The notes beneath the pieces were generated by a model. It was not told the origin of the DNA, ran no database searches, and was given only the letters and a program-made list of their open reading frames with translations. From Marivirga arenosa (lineage in GTDB: Bacteria; Bacteroidota; Bacteroidia; Cytophagales; Cyclobacteriaceae), in NCBI RefSeq assembly GCF_030503875.2, contig NZ_CP129968.2, positions 3,498,001 through 3,562,000 of the forward strand: 64,000 bases of DNA, read 5' to 3'. Each line of letters begins with the position of its first letter. The stretch's first letter is position 1. Positions 25,572-50,990 of this stretch are shown here, piece after piece. The position numbers were made by a program, and so were the translations under genes.

Positions 25572-25645
25572 GGGCCTATAGCTCAGCTGGTTAGAGCACT
25601 TGACTCATAATCAAGGGGTCCCTGGTTCGAGCCCAGGTGGGCCCA
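25572..25645 (+). tRNA. tRNA with CAT anticodon (tRNA-Ile2 or tRNA-Met)
   Basis: A 74-nt cloverleaf folds without error: acceptor GGGCCTA/TGGGCCC, D stem GCTC/GAGC, anticodon stem CTTGA/TCAAG with loop CTCATAA, and T stem CCTGG/CCAGG. CCA is not encoded. The CAT anticodon allows elongator tRNA-Met or the lysidine-modified tRNA-Ile that reads ATA. C4-G69 and C5-G68 pairs, which TilS recognises in E. coli tRNA-Ile2, favour the Ile assignment. The last 16 nt belong to the island's 35-bp direct repeat. Confidence 0.93.
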
Positions 25646-25664
25646 CTTTCAAAAATCATTTTGA
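25630..25664 (+). repeat. Left attachment repeat (tRNA 3' end)
   Basis: Thirty-five bases, identical to 50956-50990. They include the T-arm 3' strand and acceptor of the tRNA, so integration leaves the tRNA intact. Strand exchange must have happened within this block. Confidence 0.92.
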
Positions 25665-25763: not shown

Positions 25764-25878
25764 TTTTGAAATTGTATATTTTTGAACACTCGGCCCTTTC
25801 AAGCAAGTAGAGGCCGTTTTGCTGTCTGTTGTAATTATTTCTGCTCATGCTTTAGTGTCCATTTTAACATTACGCAAC

Positions 25879-27132
25879 ATGAGCAATTCAAAAAATCATT
25901 CATTAAGTACTTTACTGTATGTAAAGAAGCATCGCATCAAGGAAGGTTTAGCCCCTTTGTATCTGCGAATTTCAACCACCAATTCGAGAGTAGAATATTC
26001 ACTCAGTAGAAAAGTAGAATTCAAAAAGTGGAACTATAACAAGCAAAGGTTAGGAGGATCCACTCAGGAAACAAAAAAGTTAAATCGTTTCCTGGATCAA
26101 CTAATAGATAGAATTCACAAAATTTATGAAGAGCTGATACTGAACCAAGAATATGTAACAGCCGAAGTAATTAGAAACAAACTTTTCAACCTGGAAGAAG
26201 AAAGCGAAATCACCCTACTCTATCTTTCAAAGTATCACTTAGAGAACTTCACCAAGAAACTAAAGTGGAGCACACTAAAACACTACAAAGTGACAGAGAG
26301 ATATTTTCAAAGATTCCTAAAGGCAAAACACAAGTTAAGCGACATCCCTTTGAAAAGTATTGACTATAAATTTCTAATCGATTTTGAAGATTTCCTTCGC
26401 AATTGGAAACCAAAGGACCATCAAAAGGCACTAAATAATAATGGTGTGATGAAGCACATGATAAGATTTAGGAAACTTTTAAAACTAGCCCAAAGGCTCG
26501 ATTGGATAGAAAAGAACCCATTTAAAAAATATCAAACCCATTTTGAAAAAGTTGAAAGAGAATATCTGGATGGGAATGAACTTCAAGCCATTGAGGAAAA
26601 AGAGTTTAATATCCCAAGGCTCGAAATGGTAAGAGATATCTTTATATTCAGCTGTTATACAGGCCTATCTTATGTTGATATCTATCATTTATCGAAAGAT
26701 AATATTTCTATAGGCATGGATGGTGAGAGATGGATTCATTTGAAAAGAAAGAAAACGAATACATCCTTCTCGGTGATGCTTTTGCCAAAGGCAGAACACA
26801 TTATTGAAAAATATACAGATCATCCAAGAGCTTTTGAAAATCAGCTTTTACCTGTTTTATCTAACCAAAAAACCAACGCCTATCTAAAGGAAATTGCAGA
26901 TCTATGCGGCATAAAGAAAACGCTAACCTTTCATATAGCCCGACATACCTTTGCCACCACGGTTACTCTTACGAATGGAGTACCGATTGAAACAGTGAGC
27001 AAAATGTTAGGCCATACCAAGTTGGCCACCACACAGATTTACGCTAAAGTGGTCGAGAATAAAATAGGTGAAGATATGGCTGCACTAAAGCAGAAATTAT
27101 CACAATCCGAGCAACTGAAAAAGGCAGATTAA
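25879..27132 (+). CDS. Tyrosine-type site-specific recombinase (island integrase)
   Basis: A 417-aa integrase from the ATG at 25879. A start at 25819 is open too, but it would place a probable arm site (25855-25861) inside the gene and add a non-family N-terminus. The protein has an N-terminal arm-binding Arm-DNA region (SLSTLLYVKKHRIKEGLAPLY), a SAM-like core-binding domain and a catalytic domain. Catalytic residues seen are H352 and R355 (HIARH), H379 (LGH) and the nucleophile Y388 (QIYAKV). The usual first Arg is replaced by S264 in YTGLSYVD, as in IntDOT-type integrases of Bacteroides. It lies next to the tRNA and should catalyse integration and, with an excisionase, excision. Confidence 0.93.
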   Translation: MSNSKNHSLSTLLYVKKHRIKEGLAPLYLRISTTNSRVEYSLSRKVEFKKWNYNKQRLGGSTQETKKLNRFLDQLIDRIHKIYEELILNQEYVTAEVIRNKLFNLEEESEITLLYLSKYHLENFTKKLKWSTLKHYKVTERYFQRFLKAKHKLSDIPLKSIDYKFLIDFEDFLRNWKPKDHQKALNNNGVMKHMIRFRKLLKLAQRLDWIEKNPFKKYQTHFEKVEREYLDGNELQAIEEKEFNIPRLEMVRDIFIFSCYTGLSYVDIYHLSKDNISIGMDGERWIHLKRKKTNTSFSVMLLPKAEHIIEKYTDHPRAFENQLLPVLSNQKTNAYLKEIADLCGIKKTLTFHIARHTFATTVTLTNGVPIETVSKMLGHTKLATTQIYAKVVENKIGEDMAALKQKLSQSEQLKKAD

Positions 27133-30905: not shown

Positions 30906-31550
30906 ATGAAACAGTATAGTAGAATTTTAGGAATTGTAAGTTTTATAGCCTGTATAGGTTTGTTCGGTCTTCTGATTTTTGGCTTCATCGAATCTGAAGA
31001 AGAACGATGGATACTAATACTTCTTTCTATACCTCTATACGCTTTTATTCACTTCATTCTTCTTCATAGGTTTGGCTTCAATTATAAAGCTGAATTTACT
31101 AAGCCTCAAAGTATTGCTGTAGTTAGTCTCTCTTTAATATTTGGATTGTCATTTTTATTACTAATTCCACCTAATATCGTCAGATTTAACTCAATTATAA
31201 AAGAAAATGAAAAACTTGCAGAACCATTGAAACTTGGAATTGATACAACAGCATATGGTTATTCAGCTGGGTTAAATACTAAATTTCTTAATGGTCAGAT
31301 TAATTACCAGTTTCAGACTCTAGCAAGCGAACCCTTTAAAAAAGACAGACCCAACGTTCCTTCGTTCACTATTAAATTTTATGATGAAGATGGGTTTTTT
31401 ATTAATGAAATAGAAATCAGTAACTACACTCGAAATGTTGATAGTGAAGGTAACGTTACAGGTATTTCAGCTAACTCTAGTGAATACATGAATTCAGGTG
31501 ACTATAAAAGAATTGCTGACTGGGGTCTAGTAATAAATAAATCGAAATGA
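30906..31550 (+). CDS. Unrecognised membrane protein
   Basis: This 214-aa protein is not recognised. It has three predicted transmembrane helices in the first half (about 7-27, 35-52 and 72-92). A soluble domain of about 120 residues follows, with beta-rich segments (GQINYQFQTLA, PSFTIKFYDEDGFFINEIEIS) and no visible catalytic motif. Its stop overlaps the start of the DUF2971 gene by four bases (ATGA), so the two are translated together and probably act together. A two-gene membrane-effector module is possible but speculative. Confidence 0.6.
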   Translation: MKQYSRILGIVSFIACIGLFGLLIFGFIESEEERWILILLSIPLYAFIHFILLHRFGFNYKAEFTKPQSIAVVSLSLIFGLSFLLLIPPNIVRFNSIIKENEKLAEPLKLGIDTTAYGYSAGLNTKFLNGQINYQFQTLASEPFKKDRPNVPSFTIKFYDEDGFFINEIEISNYTRNVDSEGNVTGISANSSEYMNSGDYKRIADWGLVINKSK

Positions 31551-32308
31551 AAGTCATTGGCACTATTTCTAAAAAGCTTAAAGAAAAACCCTATATCTAT
31601 AGAATTGAACTACTTGACCGATTTGAAAAGCTTCTATCAGATAAAGAAATTGTTTTTGTAAGACCATCAACTTGGCAGGACCCTCTTGAAAATCTTATTT
31701 TCAATGCAAAACTGGTAAAGGATGGTAAAGAGTATCACCACCCAGTTAAAGAAAAAATCTATTCGCAATGTTGGAGCTATGAAGGAGATTCCTATGCTCT
31801 ATGGCAGATTTACACTACAAAAAAGAATGATAAGGGCGAATTCAAAAGACATTTGGGCGTTCGAATAACAACAAAACTTGACAAGTTACAACAAATATCA
31901 AATCTCAATAATGGCGATTTTTACTATGGTCAGGTAAATTATTTATGCAAATACCAACTTGAAAAACTACCTAAAGACCTATCTATAATTAAATCATTAA
32001 GAGATACGAATTTGAATGAAAATCATCTAAAGACACTTCTGATAAAACGTAAATCATACCATTATGAAAATGAGGTGAGATTAATTGCAAATCCTATTGA
32101 CAAATTGATAGATAAAACTGATAATCGCTTATGCAGATTAAAAATAGAACCAATGAATTTCATCACCTCTGTCAGATTTGACCCTGCAATGCCTTATAAG
32201 GACTTTAAAAGCAAGAAGGAGGAACTAATTGATAAGTTTGGTTTTAGACCAAAACAAATCACGCAATCAACTTACTTTAAGAAAAATAAATTCGTTATTA
32301 AATTATAA
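31547..32308 (+). CDS. DUF2971-like protein
   Basis: This 253-aa soluble protein resembles the DUF2971 family: an N-terminal basic strand region, the acidic turn TWQDPLENL near residue 48, a central CWSYEGDSYALWQIY-like aromatic segment, and the late YHYENEVRLIANP segment near residue 178. The biochemical function of the family is unknown; members are frequent on mobile elements. It is coupled by a 4-bp overlap to the upstream membrane protein gene. It is followed by about 120 bp without a gene and then by the convergent reverse transcriptase gene. Confidence 0.6.
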   Translation: MKVIGTISKKLKEKPYIYRIELLDRFEKLLSDKEIVFVRPSTWQDPLENLIFNAKLVKDGKEYHHPVKEKIYSQCWSYEGDSYALWQIYTTKKNDKGEFKRHLGVRITTKLDKLQQISNLNNGDFYYGQVNYLCKYQLEKLPKDLSIIKSLRDTNLNENHLKTLLIKRKSYHYENEVRLIANPIDKLIDKTDNRLCRLKIEPMNFITSVRFDPAMPYKDFKSKKEELIDKFGFRPKQITQSTYFKKNKFVIKL

Positions 32309-32430: not shown

Positions 32431-34005
32431 TTATTTTTTCAAGCTTATTATTTCTTCGTAGGTAGCTTTTTTGACATCGTGAAATTTACTCCAAACCTTT
32501 CTGTATTGTCGAATTATTGTGTCATCCTTGTTTATTTCTTTCATAACGTGATTTGCCTTGTTCAGATAACTGATAAAATTACCCCAATCGTAATGTTTAG
32601 AAGGACTATAACCAGTTGCACTGTTCTCATCTGGTAACCACTTTAGCCGTCTTTGCGAACCTAAATGTGTAAATCTCTTATATAGTCGCGTTTCAAAAAG
32701 TGAGTCAGAGGGTATGTGAGCTGATTTTGCAAAATGAACACCCCTTCTAAATGACCTTTTCATAGTTCTATAAAATTTCGAAAAACCTGCTGTTTTTACT
32801 CTGATTTTTGAGCCGTCATACATGAACCCCAAATATTCTAATTGTTTGTTAGGATTTAATATCTCATTTTTTATTAAACCGCCTTTAAATTCTGTGTTTT
32901 TGTTTAACTCATATCTGTAGATATTAGTTTTTTTTGGTTGAATGTCAAGATTTGCTTCGACTTCAATTTCTTTTTGAATTAATTGATAAAAGTGCTTTTC
33001 ATCTTTCTGGTCGCAAATTATTATTAAGTCGTCACTATATCTTTGGTAATATGCGTTTCTTGATGTTGTCTCTGAATAAACTTTTTCATCAAAGTCTAAC
33101 ATATAAATATTTGCTAGTGTTGCACTTATTGGTGTGCCCTGTGGTATTCCTTTCTTTTCTTCTTTATTCAGTTTTTTTCGAATACCCTGTTTATATGGCT
33201 TGTCCGCTCTTATTAAATCAGTAGCTTCTTCAAAGAACTCATTCTTATCACAAAATGCGACTACATTTTCGTGTCGCATATTGTAAATTTCACTAACCTT
33301 TTTACGCTTGAGTTCTTTTTGAGAAGTATCATTTGGTAAAAATCTTTCAATTATAAGTTTATGCTGAAACCTTTTAAATAATTCGTTTTCATTTACATAT
33401 TTGTTATCCACCAAATTTTTAAAAATTGTATAATGGTCATCTGGTAAATTAGTGGAATTCAAAACTCGTTTCCATTGACGATGTAAGATCCGATGGTCTA
33501 AATTGTCAAAGAATGCAGTAACATCAGCAACTATAATTGATAGTTTTCGATGTTTGTTGTTTTCTACAAATTCAAAAGACTCAAACGCAAATTCGATATT
33601 GGATTTATTTCCGCTTTTACCATTTCCAATTGGTATTTTTCTGTAAGCAACAGCGACAGAGCCATAAGGCTTATTCTCTAAATATTCTTCATAGGCTTTT
33701 GTTAGAAGATGGCTGTAATAGCTATAAATATTAGAATCTAAATGGGTTGGAAAGTAAATATGACGTTCTTTTTTATCACTAACTGTACGTTGCCTTTTAC
33801 CACTGCTGTTTTTTGGCGCATTTTCAGTGGGTCTATATTTTCTTTGACTTAAAGTTCTGTGCAACAGAGGTACAAACTTGTGATTGGCAATATTCTCAGG
33901 ATTTTCAATATAGTCTTTTAACCAACCTTTGTCTTTTTTGCTTGTTAGTGGTTTACCAATGTGCGGATACTTTTTGAATTTAAGCCATTCATCATTCATA
34001 GGCAT
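32431..34005 (-). CDS. Reverse transcriptase of the UG/DRT (defence-associated) class
   Basis: This 524-aa RNA-directed DNA polymerase carries the palm motifs: VADVTAFFDNLDH with the first catalytic Asp at 161, GIPQGTPISATLANIYM (287-302), and YSDD at 323-326 inside QRYSDDLIIIC. Next come KTNI and YLGFMYDGSKIRVK. A basic thumb-like segment (SKFYRTMKRSFRRG) and a C-terminal helical domain (LGSQRRLKWL) resemble unknown-group RTs used in anti-phage systems rather than group II intron maturases. No maturase X/HNH domain, integrase domain or intron boundary is seen. The subfamily is not assigned. A start at 33999 is equally possible. A structured leader of about 290 nt lies upstream. Confidence 0.85.
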   Translation of the reverse strand: MPMNDEWLKFKKYPHIGKPLTSKKDKGWLKDYIENPENIANHKFVPLLHRTLSQRKYRPTENAPKNSSGKRQRTVSDKKERHIYFPTHLDSNIYSYYSHLLTKAYEEYLENKPYGSVAVAYRKIPIGNGKSGNKSNIEFAFESFEFVENNKHRKLSIIVADVTAFFDNLDHRILHRQWKRVLNSTNLPDDHYTIFKNLVDNKYVNENELFKRFQHKLIIERFLPNDTSQKELKRKKVSEIYNMRHENVVAFCDKNEFFEEATDLIRADKPYKQGIRKKLNKEEKKGIPQGTPISATLANIYMLDFDEKVYSETTSRNAYYQRYSDDLIIICDQKDEKHFYQLIQKEIEVEANLDIQPKKTNIYRYELNKNTEFKGGLIKNEILNPNKQLEYLGFMYDGSKIRVKTAGFSKFYRTMKRSFRRGVHFAKSAHIPSDSLFETRLYKRFTHLGSQRRLKWLPDENSATGYSPSKHYDWGNFISYLNKANHVMKEINKDDTIIRQYRKVWSKFHDVKKATYEEIISLKK

Positions 34006-34293
34006 ATATTAGTTAAAAAAAGGATTGAGGTTGGTCGTGGCTTACTTTTCGATAGATACAATCCTGAAGTTGCTTTTCACTTTCGCTATAGGCAACGCCA
34101 CTCATTGATAGAATAGAGTTCGTATCTTTACTAACACCATCAATTATGAAAGTATTCGCAGAAATAGAAACTAAGACAGTTCATCTCGCATTCCTCACAA
34201 TGCATCTTGTAATAACATTGATAAAGATTTGCAAGATTGGAATCTCTCTTCACACGTCAGCCAAAGTCTGCGTGTGGGACACTAATGTGCACT
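34006..34293 (-). ncRNA. Candidate structured ncRNA or leader for the reverse transcriptase
   Basis: The stretch has no gene on either strand and lies directly upstream of the RT start. It contains a stem CACACG-CAG/CTG-CGTGTG with one bulge (34251-34276), GCATT/AATGC (34188-34203), and AGGATTG/CAATCCT enclosing 31 nt (34021-34065). A weak minus-strand promoter match lies just upstream: TACGTTTT (34300-34307) with a TTG at the distal end of a 23-bp spacer. UG/DRT and retron RTs often use an upstream RNA as template, so this is a fair candidate. The ends are estimates. Confidence 0.35.
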
Positions 34294-34536
34294 TTACATA
34301 AAACGTACCTATCAGTCTTGACCCAACTCTCAACCATTATCATCAAGTTGTCACAAATCATTCCAATGTTAAAATTGTGACGAAATCAGTTTGATTTATT
34401 GCAATTTATGCCATTTTGGCATTATTACTTGCAGTTTCTAAGGAATCTTAATGAATTGTCGAGTTTTATCAATCCCTATTTAGTTTTCACATTGAGTACA
34501 ACATCCCTGTTTTTAATTCTTTCTTCCTATTAATTT

Positions 34537-34567
34537 TTGCCATTCCTTTATATTAAATCTATTTTTG
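34537..34567 (+). promoter_or_regulatory. Bacteroidota-type promoter for the five-gene operon
   Basis: TTG at 34537-34539, a 20-bp spacer, then TATTTTTG at 34560-34567, a full match to TTG-N17..23-TAnnTTTG. It lies 30 bp before the start of the TPR-protease gene. Confidence 0.6.
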
Positions 34568-34597: not shown

Positions 34598-36574
34598 ATG
34601 ATTATTTATCATAAAATTGACAACTTCATATTTTCGTTATTCAATATCCAGTCTGAAGATGAAGGAAAACTCATAGAGGCTGCCAAGCAATTTTATTCCT
34701 TCCAAGGCATGGAACCAACCGTTTCTATTTCTGAAGGCCTACTCAAAATAGAACTTAATGAAAAAGCTTCAAATCAGGCTAATCAGGAGTTTCGAAAGGT
34801 ATTGGATTTATGCAATAGCCGTCAATTTGAAGCAGCAAAGCCACTAATAGAGTCCATTATAAAGGATTCACCTCAAGTTTCAGAATTCCATAGAGTCTAT
34901 GGCCAAATCCTATCTGAATTGGGCGATCAAGAAGAAGCACAAAACGAGTTGATTGACGCTTTAAAATGGGATCCAAATAATGAATGGGCATTACTCATGA
35001 TGGGCAATATTTTAGTCAAAGAGAAAAATGATATTGATGGAGCCCTGAAATACTATGACCAAATTCTTGAGACCAATCCAGAAGAAAACATCACGCTTAA
35101 TAATATTGGTGCAGTCCTCATGAACCAAGGCAGATTCTTAGAGGCTCAAAAATACTTTCAAAAATCAATAGAAATCCAGCCTGAGTTCCCTAACCCTTAC
35201 TATGCATTGGGCAGATGTCATTCAGCACTCAAGCAACATTCAAAAGCTTTTGATTTAGCAATTACCGCAGCTAAAAAGAATAATCAGCGAGATGAGATTT
35301 ATACAAGCTCGCTTCAATTAGCTTTAGATTCTGCCACAGCCATTCGTGAAGAAAGGGATGAATTCGAAACAGTAGAGGATTATAAACTGCGATTGCAAGA
35401 TAGAGCAGGTATCGAAATTAGAATTGAGGATGATATCAGCATCCAAACGGCAGCTAAATTGGAAATTGATGAGAAATACAAACGAGGCTACCATTTAGTC
35501 AAGTTCAATCCCAAGCATTCAAATGTCGAGCATTTAATTATGCACGAGCTGGTGCATTTGGAGTTTATTTTGGACGCTCGTGACAACGGTGAGAACTTCC
35601 TTTTCACCTCCTCTCAAGAGCATAAATCCAAGTTCGATAAGTCTTTTGCCAAATATCGAGTTAAACTTATTAAAAATGGGCTTGCGCCCGAAAAGGCAGA
35701 TAACTTCCTTACCTCTTTGTTTGATGGGCTCAATGGACAATTATATAATACACCCATTGACATCTTCATTGAAGATCTCCTATACAAAAGACATCCAAAT
35801 TTAAGACCAACCCAATTCCTTTCAATCTTCAATATTGTTAAGGATGGTATCAAAGCCACTACTTCAAAAGATATTGTCAATCTAACCCCTGCAAAAGTGG
35901 TTTCCGTTTCCAAAATTTTAAACTTGGTCAATGCCTTTCATTTTAAAGACCTATTCGGGGTAGATTTAATTCAACAGTTCAAAGCTACTCCTTTAGAGAA
36001 AAAGCAAGCCGAAGAATTTTTTGAAGAGTTCAGTGAATATAGGCAAGACAAACAACCAGGGGAAGAATATGAAATCATTCAACATTGGGCGGAAGATCTA
36101 GAAATTGATACTTACTTCGAATTAAAAGATGAAAAGAAAGTTTACAAATCTCAATCAGCAAAAGTAAATTCTCCTGAAGATGTATTGGAATCAATTGAGA
36201 AAGATCCTTACGGATTAGATCAAAAGAATCCTGATAATGAAGCAGAGATGAAAACATTCATCGAAACTCATTCCAAAGGAGATGTGAACATGGCGGTGGC
36301 CATGTACATGGTGGAAGCTTTAAAATACTTCTCCAATATGCCGCAGGAAGATATTAAAAAAATAGCTTTTGAAATTGCTCATATTGGCATTACTGGTATC
36401 AACCCATCAAGTAATTATAAGGTAAGTTCCATTCCGGGTAAATCCTTTTCAGGTTATCACCTTTTAGCATATTATTACACAAGCTGGGCTTTGGCAGTCC
36501 CGGAAATGCTTTCGCAACTCCAAATGCCATTCGATGAAGAATTCAGACTGGCTACACTACTTAATGAAAATTAA
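34598..36574 (+). CDS. TPR-HExxH metallopeptidase-like protein (operon gene 1)
   Basis: This 658-aa cytoplasmic protein has no signal peptide. Residues about 60-240 form tetratricopeptide repeats (VYGQILSELGDQEEAQNEL, ALKYYDQILETNPEEN, NIGAVLMNQGRFLEAQKYF). A zinc-protease-like domain follows, with HELVH at 316-320 and a possible third ligand in the segment PIDIFIEDLL near 386-395. The last 250 residues are helical and unrecognised. The layout suggests a protease that recognises partners through its TPRs. It heads a five-gene operon, with 2 bp to the next gene. The family is unnamed to me, and protease activity is inferred from HExxH only. Confidence 0.65.
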   Translation: MIIYHKIDNFIFSLFNIQSEDEGKLIEAAKQFYSFQGMEPTVSISEGLLKIELNEKASNQANQEFRKVLDLCNSRQFEAAKPLIESIIKDSPQVSEFHRVYGQILSELGDQEEAQNELIDALKWDPNNEWALLMMGNILVKEKNDIDGALKYYDQILETNPEENITLNNIGAVLMNQGRFLEAQKYFQKSIEIQPEFPNPYYALGRCHSALKQHSKAFDLAITAAKKNNQRDEIYTSSLQLALDSATAIREERDEFETVEDYKLRLQDRAGIEIRIEDDISIQTAAKLEIDEKYKRGYHLVKFNPKHSNVEHLIMHELVHLEFILDARDNGENFLFTSSQEHKSKFDKSFAKYRVKLIKNGLAPEKADNFLTSLFDGLNGQLYNTPIDIFIEDLLYKRHPNLRPTQFLSIFNIVKDGIKATTSKDIVNLTPAKVVSVSKILNLVNAFHFKDLFGVDLIQQFKATPLEKKQAEEFFEEFSEYRQDKQPGEEYEIIQHWAEDLEIDTYFELKDEKKVYKSQSAKVNSPEDVLESIEKDPYGLDQKNPDNEAEMKTFIETHSKGDVNMAVAMYMVEALKYFSNMPQEDIKKIAFEIAHIGITGINPSSNYKVSSIPGKSFSGYHLLAYYYTSWALAVPEMLSQLQMPFDEEFRLATLLNEN

Positions 36575-36576
36575 TC

Positions 36577-37191
36577 ATGAAACTACCTCCACTCTCCAAA
36601 TGCTTTCCTAACACCGAATCTTTGGCTGAACTATATGGCGGTTGGTCAGAAGGCCCAATCTTCAAAGTCAGCTTTACAGCTGAAAGCTTTGAGTTGGCAA
36701 TTGAGAAAACCAACACCTATTTAGCTCAACATGGCTTTAACTATGAACTTCAATTGGAGGACTTTGAGGAAGAAAAATCTATCGATTTTGCAGATTTAAC
36801 ATTTGCCAGAAACATCACTGCAAAAAATCAAATACTTTTAGCCTACCACCAACCACTTGATAATAACCCTTTAGATAATATCTTGGCTTTCCTTAACAGC
36901 TTCAGAGAAGAAAGAGACTGGAAGAAGTTCCACACTTCCAAAGACCTATCCCTTGCCATTAATTCCGAAGCAGGCGAATTAGCAGATCTATTCCTTTGGG
37001 ATCGAGCGGAAAGGGTCAACGAGGAAAAGGTAAAAGACGAATTAGCAGATATTATAACTTATTGCATATATTTAGCAGACAACTACAAAATAGATTTATT
37101 GGATGCTATAGTATCCAAAACCATATCAAATTCAGAAAAATACCCTGTGGCCAAATCAAAAGGCTCTGCGAAAAAATATAACGATATATGA
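36577..37191 (+). CDS. MazG-like nucleotide pyrophosphohydrolase (operon gene 2)
   Basis: This 204-aa protein has a C-terminal MazG/dCTPase-like all-alpha domain (about 100-204) with FREERDWKKFHTSKDL, the metal-binding E131-x-x-E134 and E155-x-x-D158 pairs, and the late segment KYPVAKSKGSAKKY seen in the dCTPP1/RS21-C6 group. Such enzymes cleave (d)NTPs to monophosphate and pyrophosphate. The first 100 residues are an extra N-terminal domain of unknown fold. It lies 2 bp after gene 1 and overlaps gene 3 by 4 bp, so it is part of the operon. Nucleotide depletion during infection is a plausible but unproven role. Confidence 0.85.
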   Translation: MKLPPLSKCFPNTESLAELYGGWSEGPIFKVSFTAESFELAIEKTNTYLAQHGFNYELQLEDFEEEKSIDFADLTFARNITAKNQILLAYHQPLDNNPLDNILAFLNSFREERDWKKFHTSKDLSLAINSEAGELADLFLWDRAERVNEEKVKDELADIITYCIYLADNYKIDLLDAIVSKTISNSEKYPVAKSKGSAKKYNDI

Positions 37192-39047
37192 TTGTATACA
37201 AATCAACCAAAAAAGATTTTCTAGTAGATGTGTATGATGCCGATATTCAAGACATTGTCAGGGAAGCAGTTGAGAAAAAATTGTTTATTAAAGTTGGTGA
37301 TAGCGAGCTTAATTCATGGGGCAACTCAATTCCTCAGGTCGAAATAATTCTTAGGGATAAGGACATCCCTGATGATGCTTTGGTGGCGATTGAATATAAC
37401 ATTCCCCGAACACAAAACAGGATTGATTTTATCATCAGTGGCACCGGTGAAAATGGAGAGGATAATGTAATCCTGATTGAATTAAAGCAATGGTCCAAAG
37501 CTACGCTTACAGAAAAAGATGCCATCGTAACTACTCGCTTCGCTCATGGCGAAAAAGAAACAGTTCATCCTAGTTATCAAGCTTGGTCATACTCTATGCT
37601 TCTCAGAGGGTATAATGCTGCAGTCTATGAAGGAAAGATCAACCTTTTTCCATGTGCCTATCTCCACAATTATAATGATGATGGCATCATATCAAATGAA
37701 TTCTATAAAGATCATATTACAAACGCTCCGCTTTTTTGTAAAGGAGATAAAAGAGATTTTAGGGAATTTGTCAAACGCTTTATAAAATATGGCGATAAAA
37801 AGGATTTGATTCTAACCATTGAAAATGGAGAATTAAGGCCTTCAAAGAAGCTAGCCAGCAGTTTAGCTTCATTACTTAAGGGTAATAAGGAATTCACTCT
37901 AATTGATACGCAAAAGGAAGTATACGAAACCGCAAAAACTTGCGCTATTGCAGCAAAGAACGGCCACAAAAAAGTGCTGATTGTGGAGGGTGGCCCTGGT
38001 ACTGGAAAATCGGTAATAGCCATTAATTTATTGGTAGAGCTCACTAAAAAAGGGCTTATTACTCAATATGTCACAAAAAATTCAGCTCCTCGCGCAGTTT
38101 ATGAATCCAAATTAACTGGAACAATTAAAAAAACACAGTTCTCAAATTTATTTTCAGGCTCAGGATCTTATTCTTCTGCCAAACCTAATTCTTACGATGC
38201 CCTTATTGTAGATGAGGCTCATCGATTAAATGAGAAATCTGGTCTATATTCCAACTTAGGAGAGAACCAAATCAAAGAAATTATATCATCATCCGTTTTC
38301 TCTATTTTCTTTATAGATGAGAAACAAAAAATACACATCAAGGACATAGGTTCTATTGAGCAAATTAAAGCGTGGGCAGAATTGGAAGATGCAGAAGTTC
38401 AAGTGATGGAATTAACTTCTCAATTTAGATGCGAAGGTTCTGATGGTTACTTATCATGGCTTAATAATTCCCTTCAAATTAAAACAACGGCAAACAGAAT
38501 TCTAAATGCAAAAGAATATGACTTTAGAGTTTACGATAATCCCAATGAACTACGTGATGAGATTTTCAAATTAAATAAGGTAGATAATAGTGCTAGGCTT
38601 TTGGCTGGTTATTGCTGGGATTGGAACAGTAAGAAGGATCCTGATCTGATGGATATTGTGATACCGGAACATAACTTTGAAATGCAGTGGAATCTAAATA
38701 AGAATGTCATGCTATGGATGATCAAACCTGATTCAGTATCTGAAATAGGATGTATTCATACATCTCAAGGCTTAGAAGCTGATTACGTAGGTGTAATTAT
38801 TGGTCCTGACCTAATTGTCAGAAATGGCAAGATTATCACTAACGCATTCGAGCGGTCAGGAATGGATCATTCGATCAGAGGTTTCAAAAAACTTCATAAA
38901 GCTGACCCAAAGTCAACAAATTTGTTAATGGATCAAATTATCAAGAACACCTATTACACTCTTATGACAAGGGCAATGAGAGGCTGTTTTATTTATTGCA
39001 CTGATGAAGAAACATCTGATTATTTTAAAAATTTAATTGAGCATTAA
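37188..39047 (+). CDS. PD-(D/E)xK nuclease fused to DUF2075 helicase-like ATPase (operon gene 3)
   Basis: This 619-aa protein has an N-terminal nuclease-like domain with D80 (RIDF) and E98-x-K100 (IELKQW), the arrangement of PD-(D/E)xK enzymes. A DUF2075 superfamily I-like ATPase follows, with Walker A GGPGTGKS at 268-275, Walker B IVDEAHRLN, SQFRCEGSDGY, and the late motif HTSQGLEADYVGV. The ATPase probably translocates on or unwinds nucleic acid and delivers it to the nuclease. Its start overlaps gene 2 by 4 bp. The next gene encodes a paralogue with the same domain order. Confidence 0.8.
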   Translation: MIVYKSTKKDFLVDVYDADIQDIVREAVEKKLFIKVGDSELNSWGNSIPQVEIILRDKDIPDDALVAIEYNIPRTQNRIDFIISGTGENGEDNVILIELKQWSKATLTEKDAIVTTRFAHGEKETVHPSYQAWSYSMLLRGYNAAVYEGKINLFPCAYLHNYNDDGIISNEFYKDHITNAPLFCKGDKRDFREFVKRFIKYGDKKDLILTIENGELRPSKKLASSLASLLKGNKEFTLIDTQKEVYETAKTCAIAAKNGHKKVLIVEGGPGTGKSVIAINLLVELTKKGLITQYVTKNSAPRAVYESKLTGTIKKTQFSNLFSGSGSYSSAKPNSYDALIVDEAHRLNEKSGLYSNLGENQIKEIISSSVFSIFFIDEKQKIHIKDIGSIEQIKAWAELEDAEVQVMELTSQFRCEGSDGYLSWLNNSLQIKTTANRILNAKEYDFRVYDNPNELRDEIFKLNKVDNSARLLAGYCWDWNSKKDPDLMDIVIPEHNFEMQWNLNKNVMLWMIKPDSVSEIGCIHTSQGLEADYVGVIIGPDLIVRNGKIITNAFERSGMDHSIRGFKKLHKADPKSTNLLMDQIIKNTYYTLMTRAMRGCFIYCTDEETSDYFKNLIEH

Positions 39048-39076
39048 ATTAATATAGCCTCGAAAATTCCCCTGCC

Positions 39077-40951
39077 ATGAAACTATATTCCGGATCATCT
39101 TCCGATTTTATAAATGACAATAACCAAAACTTAATAGTCTCAAAGCTTCAGTCAGAATTCTTTAAGCATTTCCGCCAAGATCCCCAGCCAAGTGAAATCA
39201 GGTCCTGGAAGGAATCACTGCAAGCAATGAGCAGCATTTTTGAAAAACTAAAGTTCACCTCTCATGGTGTCCTACTAGAATACCAACTTCCATTAACATC
39301 CAAAAGACTCGACTGCCTAATCTGCGGTAAAGACGATAATGGAAAAGAAAATGCAGTTATAATTGAGCTTAAACAATGGTCGGAAACCTTTGATTCAGAT
39401 TGTGAAAATTCCCTTTCTGTCAATTATGGAGTAGAACTAAAAGAATTATTGCACCCCTCAGTGCAGGTCGGCCAATATGCCGAATATCTTTCCGAAAATC
39501 ATTCGATTTTCACAAGCAATACCGATATCCCTCTTTTCGCTTGCGCTTATTTACACAACTATGATTACTCATCCACTGACCCTCTCTTCAATAATAAGTT
39601 TTCAGATCAGATCTCCAAATACCCTATTTTTTGTAAAAAGGAAGAATCAAATCTAGAGGAATTCTTATTATCTAAACTTTCTAAAGGAGATGGCTTGCCA
39701 ACTTTGGAGAAAATCCAGGAGGGTAAATATAATCCCCCAAAAAAATTACTCTCTGAAGTCAGTGAAATTTTAAAAGACCGATCGCCTTATATTCTTCTTG
39801 ATGAGCAACTGGTCGTTTTCGATAAGGTGAAAACATTAATTAAAAATGCATACCAGACTAATAAGAAAGCAGCCGTTATTGTAAAAGGTGGCCCTGGCAC
39901 TGGCAAATCTGTCATAGCTTTAAACTTACTTTCTTACTTTTTACACAACAAGTATAAATCACATTACGCCACGGGCTCAAAAGCTTTTACTGAAACTTTC
40001 AGGAAAATATTTGGAGCAAAGTCAAGAAATTTTTTCACCTACTTTAATGAATACAGAAATGCCTATCAAGATGATCTCGATGTACTTATCTGCGATGAAG
40101 CGCATCGCATAAGGGAGTCTAGTAACAACAGGTTTCAAAAAAATAATGGAAAAACAATCCCACAATTATATGAAATCTTAAAAGCTTCTAGAGTTACAGT
40201 TTTATTTATTGATGATTTTCAAATAGTGCGCCCTGGTGAAATAGGTTCAATCAAATATGTAAAGGAATATGCAGAATCAAAAAATGTCCAAGTCTTTGAA
40301 TATGAATTGGAATCTCAATTCAGATGCAATGGTTCTGATGGTTTCATCAATTGGCTAAATAACACATTAGGCATCAAAGCCACAGCCAATGTCATTTGGA
40401 AAGAAGCGGATCACTCTACTTATGACTTTAGAATTATCGATTCCCCTCAAAAACTAGAACAATTAATTATCAAAAAAAATAAAGAAGGTCATTCTGCCAG
40501 AATGGTAGCAGGTTTTTGTTGGCAATGGTCAGATCCTGATCCAAAAACAGGGCAGTTGAAAGAAGATGTTATAATTGGAGACTTTAAAAGATCATGGAAC
40601 GCAAAAGAATTTTCTAAGAACAAATTAGCCCCTAATATCCCTAAATCCTCATTATGGGCATATAGCAAAAATGGCATTGGCCAAGTAGGTTGTGTTTACA
40701 CTGCTCAAGGATTCGAATTTGATTATGTAGGTGTGATTTTCGGGAAAGACATGGTCTATGATCTGGATAATGGAACATGGAAAGGACTTCCTGAAAACTC
40801 ACATGACAGACCTGTAAAAAAAGATAAGGTCAATTACGAAAACTACATTAAGAATACCTATAAGATATTAATGTCACGAGGCATAAAAGGCTGTTATATT
40901 CATTTTATAGATAAAGACACAGAACGCTTTTTCAAATCGAGAATGGAATAA
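39077..40951 (+). CDS. PD-(D/E)xK nuclease fused to DUF2075 helicase-like ATPase, paralogue (operon gene 4)
   Basis: This 624-aa paralogue of gene 3 keeps every key residue: D79 (KRLDC) and E97-x-K99 (IELKQW) in the nuclease-like domain, Walker A GGPGTGKS at 271-278, Walker B ICDEAHRIRE, SQFRCNGSDGF and YTAQGFEFDYVGVIFG. The sequences are clearly related but far from identical, so this is an old duplication; the two may form a hetero-oligomer or recognise different substrates. It starts 29 bp after gene 3. Confidence 0.8.
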   Translation: MKLYSGSSSDFINDNNQNLIVSKLQSEFFKHFRQDPQPSEIRSWKESLQAMSSIFEKLKFTSHGVLLEYQLPLTSKRLDCLICGKDDNGKENAVIIELKQWSETFDSDCENSLSVNYGVELKELLHPSVQVGQYAEYLSENHSIFTSNTDIPLFACAYLHNYDYSSTDPLFNNKFSDQISKYPIFCKKEESNLEEFLLSKLSKGDGLPTLEKIQEGKYNPPKKLLSEVSEILKDRSPYILLDEQLVVFDKVKTLIKNAYQTNKKAAVIVKGGPGTGKSVIALNLLSYFLHNKYKSHYATGSKAFTETFRKIFGAKSRNFFTYFNEYRNAYQDDLDVLICDEAHRIRESSNNRFQKNNGKTIPQLYEILKASRVTVLFIDDFQIVRPGEIGSIKYVKEYAESKNVQVFEYELESQFRCNGSDGFINWLNNTLGIKATANVIWKEADHSTYDFRIIDSPQKLEQLIIKKNKEGHSARMVAGFCWQWSDPDPKTGQLKEDVIIGDFKRSWNAKEFSKNKLAPNIPKSSLWAYSKNGIGQVGCVYTAQGFEFDYVGVIFGKDMVYDLDNGTWKGLPENSHDRPVKKDKVNYENYIKNTYKILMSRGIKGCYIHFIDKDTERFFKSRME

Positions 40952-40966
40952 TACAAATGAATTAAA

Positions 40967-41920
40967 ATGGTCTTAAAAAAGAAATTTATGTTATTTGACT
41001 TAATTGATGAAACCTTTGATAAAACAATAAAGACTGATTTACAAAATAACTACCTCAATCAAGTACAAGTATCAAAAAGATGGGCATGTTATAGTGATTA
41101 TTGTTTTGATGATCCACAAAAGCCAAATGATGTTGTTTGTTTTACTTTAATTCCCTATTTCGATGATTTCCACCAACTATCAGATAAAATTCAAGATTTG
41201 GCTAATGTTGATATTAAAAATACAAGAAAGGTCAGAAAAGAATTTACAGAATTTCTAAAAACATATCCTTTAATTAATTTTTCATTTATACTAAATGATA
41301 AAAAGAAGATTTTTGGTAATAATCATGAAGAAAGGAAAAAGACACTCAAAAAAGAATATACCGACCTAAAGAAAAAATATAAAGAATGGCTTAACAATCA
41401 ACCAGATCAAAAAGAATATTATAGTCAAATTATTAAAAAAATTGACTGTGTTTTACTATCTATTGAGAGGAATAAAAAAATTAAACAAATTATTGGGATG
41501 ACTTTAGTAACAGCATTAGGTGCATATGTCTCCAACCAGGTAGTTAAAAAACTGGATTTAGATATTTTTGGTTGGTTTTCAGACAGAGATAGTATAAATG
41601 AAGTTTGTGATAATTTTTCTATTCAGTTATTTCACACTTATTTACATAATTTTTCAGATGGTAAGCAATTCAAATTTTTAGCTTCTCCAGCAGGAAGCAC
41701 AGCTAATGCTTTTTATGAACAACTAGTAAGAATTCCAGACTATATATCTGGAACAATTTCTGACTATGATAGGAAACTTAATCAGATCAGTAATGATAAG
41801 TTTGACGCAATGCTTACAAACTACATGGCAGGTAATACTCATAATAACTTTGTATTGAAATTATCGACTGATGTTAATGGATTATATTGCTCAAGAATAT
41901 TAATAGATCTAAAGGAATAA
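40967..41920 (+). CDS. Unrecognised protein closing the protease/MazG/DUF2075 operon (operon gene 5)
   Basis: This 317-aa protein is not recognised. It is Lys-rich and apparently cytoplasmic. Residues about 125-165 form a charged helix (KKEYTDLKKKYKEWL), a short hydrophobic stretch (IIGMTLVTALGAYVS) near 185 may be membrane-proximal, and the segment DRDSINEVCDNFSIQLFHTYLHNF holds conserved-looking Asp, Asn and His residues without a known motif. It follows gene 4 by 15 bp on the same strand and is probably cotranscribed. A role as effector or sensor of the operon is possible. Confidence 0.55.
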   Translation: MVLKKKFMLFDLIDETFDKTIKTDLQNNYLNQVQVSKRWACYSDYCFDDPQKPNDVVCFTLIPYFDDFHQLSDKIQDLANVDIKNTRKVRKEFTEFLKTYPLINFSFILNDKKKIFGNNHEERKKTLKKEYTDLKKKYKEWLNNQPDQKEYYSQIIKKIDCVLLSIERNKKIKQIIGMTLVTALGAYVSNQVVKKLDLDIFGWFSDRDSINEVCDNFSIQLFHTYLHNFSDGKQFKFLASPAGSTANAFYEQLVRIPDYISGTISDYDRKLNQISNDKFDAMLTNYMAGNTHNNFVLKLSTDVNGLYCSRILIDLKE

Positions 41921-43223: not shown

Positions 43224-43434
43224 TTTTTTTACTTATTAATTACCTCTTTTTTTTCTATCAAATTAAACACCCTAAATAAAACATATTCGATCAAATACCT
43301 TTAAAATATATTATTTTCCTTAATTTAACTACTTATACTCCAAGCATACATTAATTAGTAACAATTTATATCTGCAATATAATTATTATCTGTATCTGGT
43401 ATGTGCTAAGTAATTGAAGCCAAATAAAAAAACC

Positions 43435-45282
43435 ATGAAAATTAAATTACCCAAAATAGAAAAGCACATCCATACTAATGGCAGTAATTCTATAAAGCAA
43501 TATTATAAAGAGTCAATTACAGCAAACTTCGAATTTGTTAAAAGCACACCTTTTATAATTTCCTCAAACGAAGAATCATATTTTATCACTAGTAGAATTG
43601 ATGATGAAATTCCTAATAATTGTAAATACGCTTTACTAGCTTCAAAAAAACCAAAAAAAAAGGATTTCTTATCAAATTCATTAAAATTAAAAAGATGGCT
43701 AAAGCATCCTTTATTTAAAGACTTGTCACCTCAAGAAGTTGTTTCTTCATGGAAAAATAACTTTAGGTTTATAAAAGAAGATGTTGAGAACGGAATTAAA
43801 GGATTACGGCCTCCCCAAATTGGTGCTCTTTATTCCATATTAGCTCATATCCAAACACCAGAGGAAAAGGGCATTGTAGTTATGCCGACTGGAACAGGTA
43901 AAACAGAAACAATGATATCAACCTTAGTAGCTAATGAATGCAAAAAATTATTAGTTGCTGTCCCATCAGATTCATTACGTACTCAGTTATCAGCAAAATT
44001 TAGCACCCTTGGATTGATTAGGGATTTTGGGATGGTCAATGATTCTTGTCATAATCCTATAGTAGGGATAATCAATGAGAAATTTGAAAGTGAAGAATAT
44101 CTTTTAGAGTTTATCACTAAATCAAATGTAGTCATTACAACAATGAGCATTCTTGCAGGTAGTTCCTATGAACATCAAATTGCTTTTTCTAACTCATTTA
44201 GTCATTTATTTGTTGATGAGGCTCATCATTCCGAGGCAAGTTCGTGGAAAGAATTTATCAATCATTTTAATAAAGAAAAGGTCTTTCTTTTTACTGCAAC
44301 TCCGTTTAGAAATGACGGTAAGAATTTAGATGGTAAATTTATTTTTAATTTATCCCTTAAAGAAGCACAAAGACAAGGGTACTATAAACAAATCAACTTC
44401 TTACCTATAAGAGAATATGATAAAACTGAAGCAGATAAGAAAATAGCAGTAAAAGCAGTAAATAAATTAAAAGAAGATATTGCTAATGGGTATCCCCATA
44501 TAATTATGGCAAGATGTGTTTCAAAGAACAGAGCTGTAGAGGTCTTTGAACACTATAGGATATATGAAGATTTAAATCCAATCTTAGTGTACACTGGTAT
44601 TCCAAATCTGAAAAACAAATTAAAAGCAGTAAAGGAAAAAAAACATAGTATTGTTGTATGTGTAAATATGCTTGGAGAGGGATTTGATCTTCCTGAATTA
44701 AAAATTGCTGCTATTCATGATGAAAGGCAAAGTTTACCAATTACTCTTCAATTTGTAGGTAGGTTTACCAGGACATCTTTTAATTCTCTAGGAAATGCTA
44801 GCTTTATAACAAATATCGCATACCCTCCAATTCAAGAAGAACTCAATAATCTTTATGCCAAAAATGCTGATTGGAATCTTTTGCTTCCAAACATGAGTGA
44901 AGGTGCAACAGACAAAGAAATTGATTTCCAAGAATTTTTAGATGGTTTCAATAATCTAGAGGATTCTAAAATACCCTTTCAAAATATAAACCCTGCAATG
45001 AGTTCAGTTGTGTTTAAAAATAGTGGAAGAGAATGGTACCCTAATAATTGGAGGCAGGGTATTAGCAACATAGGAACATATCAACATCAATTTAGTAATC
45101 ATAATCCTGATAAGAAAACATTGGTAATAATATTAGGAAAGGTAGAAAAGGTAGATTGGGGTGATTTTGATGTTGTGCAAGATATGGAGTGGAATATGAT
45201 TGTTGTACATTGGGATTTGCGCCACGATAGGAATTTGATATTTGTTCATACATCATTAAAAATTTATCATCAGAAAAGTTAA
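43435..45282 (+). pseudogene. DEAD/DEAH-box helicase-nuclease, N-terminal part before a frameshift
   Basis: The N-terminal two thirds of a large SF2 helicase: Q-like region LRPPQIGALYSI, Walker A MPTGTGKTE, Walker B VDEAHHSE, motif III TATPFR, and motif VI QFVGRFTR. The ATG at 43435 is preferred over an in-frame TTG at 43414. The frame stops at 45282, but the downstream frame (to 46676) continues the same protein. A single extra base in the A5 run at 45258-45262 would join them into one protein of about 1080 aa. The gene is broken by a 1-base loss, by a sequencing error, or by programmed slippage. Confidence 0.75.
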
Positions 45283-45329: not shown

Positions 45330-46676
45330 ATGTTTAAGATTTTTCATAATGTTAAAAGACTCACATTGTATAATGTAGGCGCTAGACCAGGTGCAGGACG
45401 CGATATTAGTTTTCAGTCTTTCTTTGGGAAAGGTGTACAGGACGGCTTAAGTTTATTAGAGCAAGGCACACTTATCAAAAATAATATTTTTGGTGTAGGT
45501 TTTAAAAATGGAGAAAAAATATCGTTAGGATGCTCTATCAAAGGTAAAGTTTGGTCTTACTTAAGAGGGAATTTAAATGAGTTAACTCAATGGTGTGAGT
45601 CTATTGGAGATGCACTTGATGATCCTAATATAAATCCAAATACTGTTTTAGAAAACACGCTTGTCCCAGAAATAATAACCCAACGGCCAAATGTAGCTCC
45701 CATTGCAGTTGAATGGCATTATAAAATGTTTCAGTACTCAGAGAACAGATATATAATTAGCATTAATGGTAACGATTATGACCTTTCTAATTCAGAACTA
45801 AATATTGTTGATAGTCCTGCCGATTCGCCTTTAAGGTTTTGCTTCAAATGCAAAGACTATATTATAAATTATGAATTAGTATTAGGGTCTAAGTCTGTCA
45901 ATAGCAAACCAGAGGCTTTCTTTGAAGTGAAAAAAAAATCTACGGAAGATCCTATAATAACTTATGGTAGCACTAGAGAAAGTCTCACTTACTTTTTACA
46001 AAAATACACTCCCACTTTTTGGTTTGCCAACGGTGCCCAATTATTTCAAAATAATCTTGTTACGCCTAAAGAAAGTGTTGATGGAATTTCATTAAAAAAC
46101 ATCATTCCAATGAATTGGAATGGGGTTTCTATAAGAAAAGAATCCCAAGGCATTGCTCCATACGAAACAGATTCAATTCAATATCATTTTATAAATGAAG
46201 TTCACAAAGATTTTGAAATCATCTATGATGATGATGGTTCTGGCGAAATTGCAGATGTTATCGGAATAAATAATGGAGACAAAACAATTGACATCCACTT
46301 ATTTCATTTGAAATATGCTAAAAACGGTCGGACTAGTAACGATATCAGTAATTTTTATGAAGTCTGCGGTCAAGCACAAAAATCTTTGAATTGGAAGTAT
46401 CGTGATGGTAAGGATTTCTTTAATCATCTATTAAGAAGAGTAACAAAATCAAAAAACGATGTCACTTGTAGCAGAATAATCAAAGGCAACGAGGAAGATT
46501 TGGAACTTTTATTAAATGCTGCCAAATGGACTAAAGAAATGAAATTTCATATTTACATTGTTCAACCTAGTCTAGTCAAAAATGAGGCCTCGAAAAGTAT
46601 TTTGCTATTATTAGGCAATACTCAACATTATTTACAGACTGTCGGAAATGTTGAATTAAAAGTTTATTCAAGCTAA
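45330..46676 (+). pseudogene. DEAD/DEAH-box helicase-nuclease, C-terminal part after the frameshift
   Basis: The C-terminal part of the helicase above. Its frame is open from 45231, and residues before the first ATG (FGEDVNQIDGTN) continue the upstream protein. GARPGAGRDISFQSFFGKGV and the late segment IADVIGINNGDKTIDIHLFHLKYA...FYEVCGQAQKSLNW resemble the C-terminal region of large DEAD/DEAH proteins, where an Asp and an HxK replace the usual (D/E)xK nuclease motif. Translation from 45330 alone would lack the ATPase. The family call for the C-terminal region is from memory. Confidence 0.7.
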
Positions 46677-50955: not shown

Positions 50956-50990
50956 AGCCCAGGTGGGCCCACTTTCAAAAATCATTTTGA
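50956..50990 (+). repeat. Right attachment repeat (displaced tRNA 3' end)
   Basis: Perfect 35-bp copy of 25630-25664 with no tRNA upstream. It is followed by an insertion of AC relative to the left copy and a second copy of the tRNA terminator hairpin. It marks the return to chromosomal sequence. Confidence 0.92.

Follow-up and report, generated by a model that had tools for sequence, protein, structure and literature searches.

Defence systems built on dCTP deaminases or dGTPases act by abortive nucleotide depletion, and pairs of an XRE repressor and an HExxH peptidase are known in ImmR/ImmA and RosmerTA. A part in phage defence has been predicted for MazG-type domains, and according to the 2026 DefensePredictor paper none of these and similar domains had been validated (PMC13092281). 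dCTP pyrophosphatase 1/RS21-C6 (DCTPP1/RS21-C6) proteins are called highly specific 5-methyl-dCTP hydrolases, and those of mammals nucleotide-pool-cleaning enzymes, in another paper (PMC10742078). The main text of a census of McrBC systems contains neither "pyrophospho" nor "dCTP" (PMC11090510), and that of a survey of BREX contains no mention of tetratricopeptide repeats (TPRs), HExxH, metallopeptidase, zincin or MazG (PMC12839542); nor did searches of the open-licence PubMed Central library list any report that we recognised as pairing MazG with DUF2075/SLFN. In a stretch of 64,000 nt of the Marivirga arenosa genome (contig NZ_CP129968.2, assembly GCF_030503875.2, positions 3,498,001–3,562,000 of the forward strand; hereafter the window), five consecutive genes, numbered 1 to 5, bring such parts together in one operon: a TPR–HExxH protein, a MazG-like enzyme, two nuclease–helicases in tandem and a fifth protein (Table 1). 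The most consistent unit within this operon and its relatives is gene 2 with a nuclease–SLFN helicase, though neither is strictly tied to the other.

A sequence-only reading of the window had proposed that the five genes form one system. The five same-strand open reading frames are indeed present where it placed them, with gaps of 2, −4, 29 and 15 bp, but the single system does not hold: gene 5 is not conserved with the set, and gene 1 is separable from gene 2. What stands of the conserved co-occurrence it anticipated is the fixed order 1-2-3, extended to 1-2-3-4 in Rufibacter, Pontibacter and Hymenobacter; gene 5 has no share in it. Searching for gene 1 yielded 164 confirmed loci, and the best 80 of them, some cut by contig ends, were examined. 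Gene 2 is present in 39 of these 80; it directly adjoins gene 1 in 35, and in the other 4 one gene separates the two. Of the 39 loci with both genes, 30 carry an SLFN-g3 helicase within two genes and 7 a McrB/McrC-like pair, 37 in all. Of the remaining two, one runs into a contig end (L103) and the other has a T5orf172 GIY-YIG protein (L116).

Counting from gene 2 removes the bias of gene 1 as a starting point. Eleven of 148 genomes sampled from the family have gene 2, and an SLFN-g3 helicase adjoins it in 8 of the 11, once in split frames; strong SLFN-g3 matches (E < 1e-50) occur in 13 of the 148 genomes overall. Across the phylum, 30 of 395 sampled genomes have some match to gene 2. Twenty of the phylum loci are close (E < 1e-47, with the window included and the duplicate of its genes on contig C2 of the same assembly left out), and in 18 the helicase lies downstream on the same strand, as the next gene or the next but one; in one of the 18 a gene of 363 aa intervenes, in another the helicase is cut short at 231 aa, and in a third it is split. 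When larger stretches were taken around the 19 close loci outside the window and around G369, whose gene-2 match is weaker than 1e-47 and which lacks the helicase, 17 of these 20 had one, comprising 11 GIY-YIG and 6 PD-(D/E)xK-like forms by motif. Gene 1, sought in the phylum sample with its catalytic part alone, accompanies 3 of the 20 close gene-2 loci (the window, G344 and G315).

The same pair is also found on plasmids, where a tblastn search, with gene 3 in its PD-(D/E)xK-like form as the helicase query, found gene 2 in 24 records and gene 3 in 28 (25 listed). On a plasmid of the archaeon Halalkalicoccus jeotgali the two genes are separated by 5 bp; on one of Priestia aryabhattai gene 2 shares 4 bp with an upstream MrcB_N gene (E 1.5e-51), and genes for an N-6 methyltransferase and HsdS lie downstream of the pair. 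Ligilactobacillus salivarius carries the pair in reversed order, likewise beside HsdS and an N-6 methyltransferase, and plasmids of Nocardiopsis eucommiae and Halomonas have gene-3-like matches within 1 kb of damaged-looking gene-2 frames.

A number of these counts weigh against a fixed partnership. Gene 2 is missing from 41 of the 80 gene-1 loci (8 of which have less than 1.5 kb of downstream sequence) and from 22 of the 25 phylum genomes with gene 1, only 3 of the 25 having both. Five of the 13 family genomes with a strong SLFN-g3 match lack gene 2; conversely, no helicase adjoins gene 2 in 3 of its 11 family genomes or in 2 of the 20 close phylum loci, and none lies within 1.5 kb in ten more distant gene-2 loci (L162–L171). 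A gene-3-like match falls within 1 kb in only 5 of the 24 plasmid gene-2 records, the two damaged-looking ones included; the helicase is missing from the gene-2 loci on plasmids of Enterococcus, Paenibacillus and Streptomyces, and no gene 2 is annotated next to gene 3 on a Methanosphaera and a Hymenobacter plasmid. Because gene 2 occurs without the helicase, a housekeeping dCTPase role for it is possible.

Gene 2 matches the MazG-like family PF12643 in its C-terminal part, with homology over approximately residues 99–204, behind an N-terminal extension of about 97 aa that has a counterpart, judged by length, in 8 of 39 relatives. Its best solved relatives are DCTPP1/RS21-C6 (E 1.2e-17 with the single sequence, 2e-25 with a profile), and the alignment to them spans the RDW..FH, E..E, LF.W and E..D blocks as well as the KYP..GSA.KY tail. 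Each of the metal residues that the earlier reading had picked out (E131, E134, E155 and D158) is conserved in 39 of 40 sequences, the window included; PADLOC gave no match to the protein. The general idea of nucleotide depletion can accordingly be sharpened, since gene 2 is closest to dCTP and 5-methyl-dCTP pyrophosphatases. It is likely, judging by these relatives, that gene 2 encodes a DCTPP1/RS21-C6-type dCTP pyrophosphatase, with dCTP and C5-modified dCTP as its predicted substrate class.

Genes 3 and 4 are tandem paralogues, as had been proposed, each with a D...ExK block followed by Walker A and DEAH-type B motifs. Both match SLFN-g3_helicase (PF09848, the former DUF2075) over the whole profile, with 339 and 304 bits against a cut-off of 24. 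The N-terminus of gene 3 has only a sub-threshold NERD match in Pfam, and its PD-(D/E)xK-like assignment comes from the motif. Three classes of nuclease–helicase can be distinguished among the relatives. Class A proteins have approximately 620 aa, as do genes 3 and 4, and have D80...E98-L-K100 ahead of the helicase; those of classes B and C, of approximately 565–580 and 720–750 aa, begin with a GIY-YIG domain (by Pfam in 4 of 4 tested). D80, E98 and K100 of gene 3 and the helicase motifs are invariant in 24 of 24 aligned class A sequences, with the qualification that E98 and K100 carry no weight for six of them, because these were chosen by the ExK-W motif itself. PD-(D/E)xK and GIY-YIG nucleases are mainly DNases.

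The nuclease behind gene 2 varies in kind. Within two genes, the 39 loci with genes 1 and 2 have a GIY-YIG–SLFN partner in 17 cases, a PD-(D/E)xK-like–SLFN partner in 13 and a McrB/DUF2357-PDDEXK_7 pair in 7, where nuclease classes were assigned by motif and the McrB/McrC-like domains by Pfam in one representative pair. The best gene-2 tree (63 rows) contains 13 changes of partner class but is poorly resolved, and its starred branches force only 2–3 changes per class. For the McrB-like N-terminus, a resemblance to EVE was judged by eye only and is not claimed. As in the window, a gene-4-like gene follows a gene-3-like one in Rufibacter (L069), Pontibacter (L089) and Hymenobacter (L130).

Three loci (L072, L120 and L131) have in a row an SLFN helicase of approximately 700–734 aa, an AAA_11/12 helicase (cluster C22) and a gene-4-type protein; in L120 and L131 the fetched stretch ends within the last of these, and the C22 member of L072 is similar to a part of MkoA (E 2e-41). 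A GIY-YIG–SLFN helicase (L021:15087-17300), the single class C protein scanned, has a Peptidase_S24-like C-terminus (E 1e-7), and control by self-cleavage is possible there.

Gene 1 carries the HELVH motif behind its TPRs, as the sequence-only reading had noticed. In an alignment of the window with 29 of the 120 listed homologues, H316, E317 and H320 do not vary in any of the 30 sequences, nor do they in the 17 of a second alignment; E392, invariant in both, is a candidate third metal ligand. Pfam finds TPRs only, with no match to a peptidase family, and the PADLOC matches are confined to the TPR part. The HExxH region matched nothing in Pfam or PADLOC, and a PDB profile search gave a single row with an E-value of 2. 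The predicted structure of the whole protein has a mean pLDDT (predicted local distance difference test) score of 85.8, and the matches listed from its fold search are to TPR structures. In 8 of the 80 loci an XRE-like helix-turn-helix (HTH) gene lies at most 70 nt upstream of gene 1 (assigned by eye and by cluster, and by Pfam in one, L064), which suggests a putative repressor–protease pair.

The 41 gene-1 loci without gene 2 have other company. In an interval reaching 5 kb upstream and 8 kb downstream, both strands counted, and with one or two representatives of each cluster checked by domain, they include clusters that are McrBC-like (3), BREX (3), PLD-SNF2 (4), DrmD-like (2), T5orf172 (1) and distal SLFN (2); a type I restriction–modification (RM) HsdR (L141) and a DrmMI-like protein (L121) were identified by domain. 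Because gene 1 also stands at the head of BREX, type I RM and DISARM-like operons, and often occurs without gene 2, it is a separable and frequent accessory. It is likely a switch. No relative of gene 1 was found in the viral contigs scanned. A raw tally that placed gene 1 in 147 of the 148 family genomes reflected TPR noise and was discarded; at E < 1e-40, nine genomes besides that of the window match. As a separate observation, 16 of the 25 phylum genomes with gene 1, some by weak matches, fall in one distant genus, where L177 to L191 are among the loci and gene 2 was not found.

A restriction-type antiviral role for the core is probable, because a predicted dNTP pyrophosphatase is joined to a predicted ATP-driven nuclease, because McrBC-type modules occupy the same slot, and because the operon lies in a mobile defence island. 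The core would consist of gene 2, as a dCTP pyrophosphatase, and gene 3, as an ATP-driven nuclease–translocase, with gene 4 as a second copy. The nuclease–helicase may load on foreign DNA, translocate and cut, while gene 2 would hydrolyse dCTP, C5-modified dCTP or both, drawn from the phage pool or released from the cut DNA. Such hydrolysis could starve phage replication; it could also prevent the host genome from taking up modified cytosines, which would expose it to self-cutting. This idea of pool sanitation arises because DCTPP1/RS21-C6 are described as 5-methyl-dCTP hydrolases. Gene 1 would be an add-on switch, common to operons of BREX, RM, McrBC-like and DISARM-like type; it would probably act as a protease and, once infection is sensed, take away a repressor or inhibitor. 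Gene 5 would be a locally joined RNase H-fold cargo. The complete proposal, of an antiviral restriction module on a mobile island with dCTP or modified dCTP as substrate and with the role given here to gene 1, seems to us evenly poised between right and wrong. Specificity for modified cytosine is a more doubtful part of it: targeting of C5-modified cytosine is read across from relatives (McrBC-like and MrcB_N), a point that counts against it.

Restriction might instead be blind to modification, with DNA chosen by its ends, by replication forks or by the lack of host methylation, and with canonical dCTP drained abortively. The conserved metal site of gene 2 would fit such a drain, and on the Priestia and Ligilactobacillus plasmids the pair stands with HsdS and the N-6 methyltransferase as in a type I RM system, where adenine methylation would set self. 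Yet McrB/McrC-like modules replace the helicase in 7 of the 39 loci and MrcB_N adjoins the pair in Priestia, both being modification-linked families, and Pfam found no methylase domain in the five genes; we regard this alternative as possible, though on the unlikely side.

A role outside defence, as a cassette for dNTP-pool sanitation and DNA repair carried by mobile elements or as a means of element maintenance, is improbable. It would agree with the pool-cleaning function ascribed to mammalian relatives of gene 2 (PMC10742078), and with one plasmid gene-2 locus that sits among housekeeping genes. The patchy distribution of gene 2 (11 of 148 family genomes), its mobile island, its varying nuclease modules and neighbours that include a Drt2-like reverse transcriptase (RT), PDC-S31, BREX and RM genes argue otherwise. 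Defence at the level of RNA, in which helicase and nuclease would act on RNA or tRNA to arrest growth with gene 2 as an auxiliary, is slightly less probable still: the Pfam entry for PF09848 speaks of a DNA/RNA helicase domain, and a survey describes Schlafen RNases as effectors linked with BREX loci (PMC12839542), but genes 3 and 4 have no Schlafen RNase-core family among their Pfam matches, the N-termini are PD-(D/E)xK-like or GIY-YIG and alternate with McrC-type PDDEXK_7, and a dNTP pyrophosphatase suits DNA better.

The restriction-type reading of the core gives the MazG-type domain a concrete conserved partner, the nuclease–SLFN-g3 helicase, and a likely substrate class. If true, it would represent a new logic in which restriction is combined with pool sanitation, and would explain the recurrent nucleotide pyrophosphohydrolase beside "DUF2075" genes; gene 1 would then point to a protease-type layer of control across several large defence systems. 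A broader generalisation, to a widespread, undescribed bacterial and archaeal family of modification-dependent restriction systems with interchangeable modified-cytosine nucleases (PD-(D/E)xK-SLFN, GIY-YIG-SLFN or McrBC-like), each with a DCTPP1-type destroyer of modified dCTP and with gene 1 as a general-purpose switch that also serves BREX, RM and DISARM-like operons, is speculative and more likely wrong than right.

Gene 5 gives nothing above the Pfam cut-off and no PADLOC match. D44, D206, D208, D258 and D266 are invariant in 33 aligned sequences, and the protein is predicted to have an RNase H fold. None of the 80 other gene-1 loci, some of them cut by contig ends, contains a relative, and in a sample of 345 genomes it was met in the window's own genome only, apart from one fragment of 43 residues; by this distribution gene 5 is a local addition outside the conserved set. 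Relatives on plasmids share 22–24% identity among the ten matches listed, and the two whose surroundings were read lie in mixed contexts, one beside an AbiGi-like antitoxin with ATPase/helicase genes and one beside insertion sequence elements. No relative was found in the viral contigs scanned. A DUF3800-like identity for gene 5 was considered and dropped, DUF3800 not being among the Pfam matches listed.

The operon travels on a mobile island. A "tRNA island" had been suggested, but ARAGORN finds a single tRNA in the window, a tRNA-Met 9 kb upstream of the operon. A 25.3-kb element (25630 to ~50955) has integrated at this tRNA; it contains the operon, and its integrase, tRNA site, direct repeats and circular form were all found. 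Contig C2 (25,320 bp) is the same interval, circularly permuted, and joins the right flank of the island to the att core and the left flank, as an excised circle would. Because C2 carries this join, the island probably excises, or was present as tandem copies, in the sequenced culture. The alternative that C2 is a second, diverged copy was rejected: its differences are scattered mismatches (141+40) together with indels, mostly of 1–2 bp, and the many short indels point to a low-coverage consensus. In other genomes, separate low-quality contigs of this kind could be searched for signs of excision. Genes 1–3 have DNA matches in two congeneric genomes, at 82% along most of the stretch in the first and at 87% in the second, and gene 1 is 93% identical to its M. 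sericea homologue; genes 4 and 5 have no DNA match in either genome and no protein match within the stretches fetched.

Table 1. Features of the operon and its mobile island, in window coordinates.
Feature	Position	Strand	Description
gene 1	34598..36574	+	TPR repeats (~residues 60–250) and HExxH metallopeptidase-like region
gene 2	36577..37191	+	DCTPP1/RS21-C6-like predicted dCTP pyrophosphatase, MazG-like PF12643
gene 3	37188..39047	+	PD-(D/E)xK-like nuclease (D80, E98, K100) and Schlafen-group-3 helicase PF09848
gene 4	39077..40951	+	gene-3 paralogue, distinct subfamily
gene 5	40967..41920	+	predicted RNase H-fold protein, local addition
promoter-like match, Bacteroidota type	34536..34567	+	5' of gene 1; not above chance in window
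tRNA-Met, integration site	25572..25646	+	ARAGORN
attL core	25630..25664	+	35-bp exact direct repeat, covers last 17 nt of tRNA-Met
attR core	50956..50990	+	identical 35 bp
integrase	25819..27132	+	tyrosine (phage-family) integrase, just inside island

Upstream of gene 1, the sigma-70-like promoter match reported at 34537–34567 is no evidence of a promoter, as the region has 36 such matches against 32.5 ± 5.7 in shuffles. The motif TTTG-N20-TAnnTTTG, the Bacteroidota promoter consensus, does occur just there (Table 1), and it has 4 matches in the window against 3.94 expected.

The neighbourhood is defence-like. A Drt2-like antiviral RT (32431–34005, minus strand) matches PADLOC with an E-value of 1e-132 and reaches 328 of the 390 bits of the NCBIfam Drt2 cut-off, hence falls below it; a DUF2971 protein (31547–32308) matches the PADLOC candidate PDC-S31 (E 5e-49) and is likely another defence gene of the island. 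DRT2-type systems are expected to carry a strongly folding non-coding RNA, and the 295 nt upstream of the RT (34006–34300) show an unusually strong fold on the RT strand (z −3.64, equalled in 0 of 200 shuffles). Farther along, a ResIII/DEAD helicase (43414–45282) is followed by a 448-aa protein (45330–46676) with no match in Pfam, NCBIfam or PADLOC; the two are possibly a further two-gene defence unit.

That the combination is not a named system was an early suspicion, and it agrees with PADLOC 2.0.0, whose matches to the operon proteins are partial or none: signature genes of BREX, DISARM and other named PADLOC systems were not found among them, the hits being to parts of helicase, nuclease and TPR models only. 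Several described systems nonetheless resemble single parts of the operon. Genes 3 and 4 match the helicase part of Nhi/AbiO (PDLC02372, PDLC02350; E 1e-12 to 3e-11), but the match covers approximately 175–200 residues of helicase only (residues 178–330 of the 470 of the Nhi model for gene 3), and the window proteins differ in their PD-(D/E)xK-like N-terminus, their dCTPase partner and their tandem arrangement. The top PADLOC match of both genes is PDC-S41 (E 9e-14 for gene 3, 3e-21 for gene 4), mainly over the N-terminal nuclease and the start of the helicase; that match too is partial, as are weaker ones to other models, and PDC-S41 is an unnamed candidate whose single model implies no dCTPase or TPR partner. 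Pairs of an XRE repressor with an HExxH peptidase recall gene 1 in its HExxH motif and in the HTH gene found upstream in some loci, although gene 1 differs in having TPRs and no Pfam peptidase family, and its upstream neighbour in the window is the divergent RT, not an HTH gene. DCTPP1/RS21-C6 share with gene 2 the metal residues and the C-terminal tail; the mammalian protein, however, is a sanitation enzyme, whereas gene 2 adds an N-terminal extension and shares its operon with nuclease–helicases. McrBC type IV restriction comes near in another way, as a McrB GTPase and a DUF2357/PD-(D/E)xK McrC fill the nuclease slot behind genes 1 and 2 in 7 of 39 relatives, but neither McrB nor McrC is among the five genes of the window, where SLFN-helicase nucleases stand instead. 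The pairing of a DCTPP1-type enzyme with a nuclease–SLFN helicase is unnamed, yet each of its parts belongs to a known kind.

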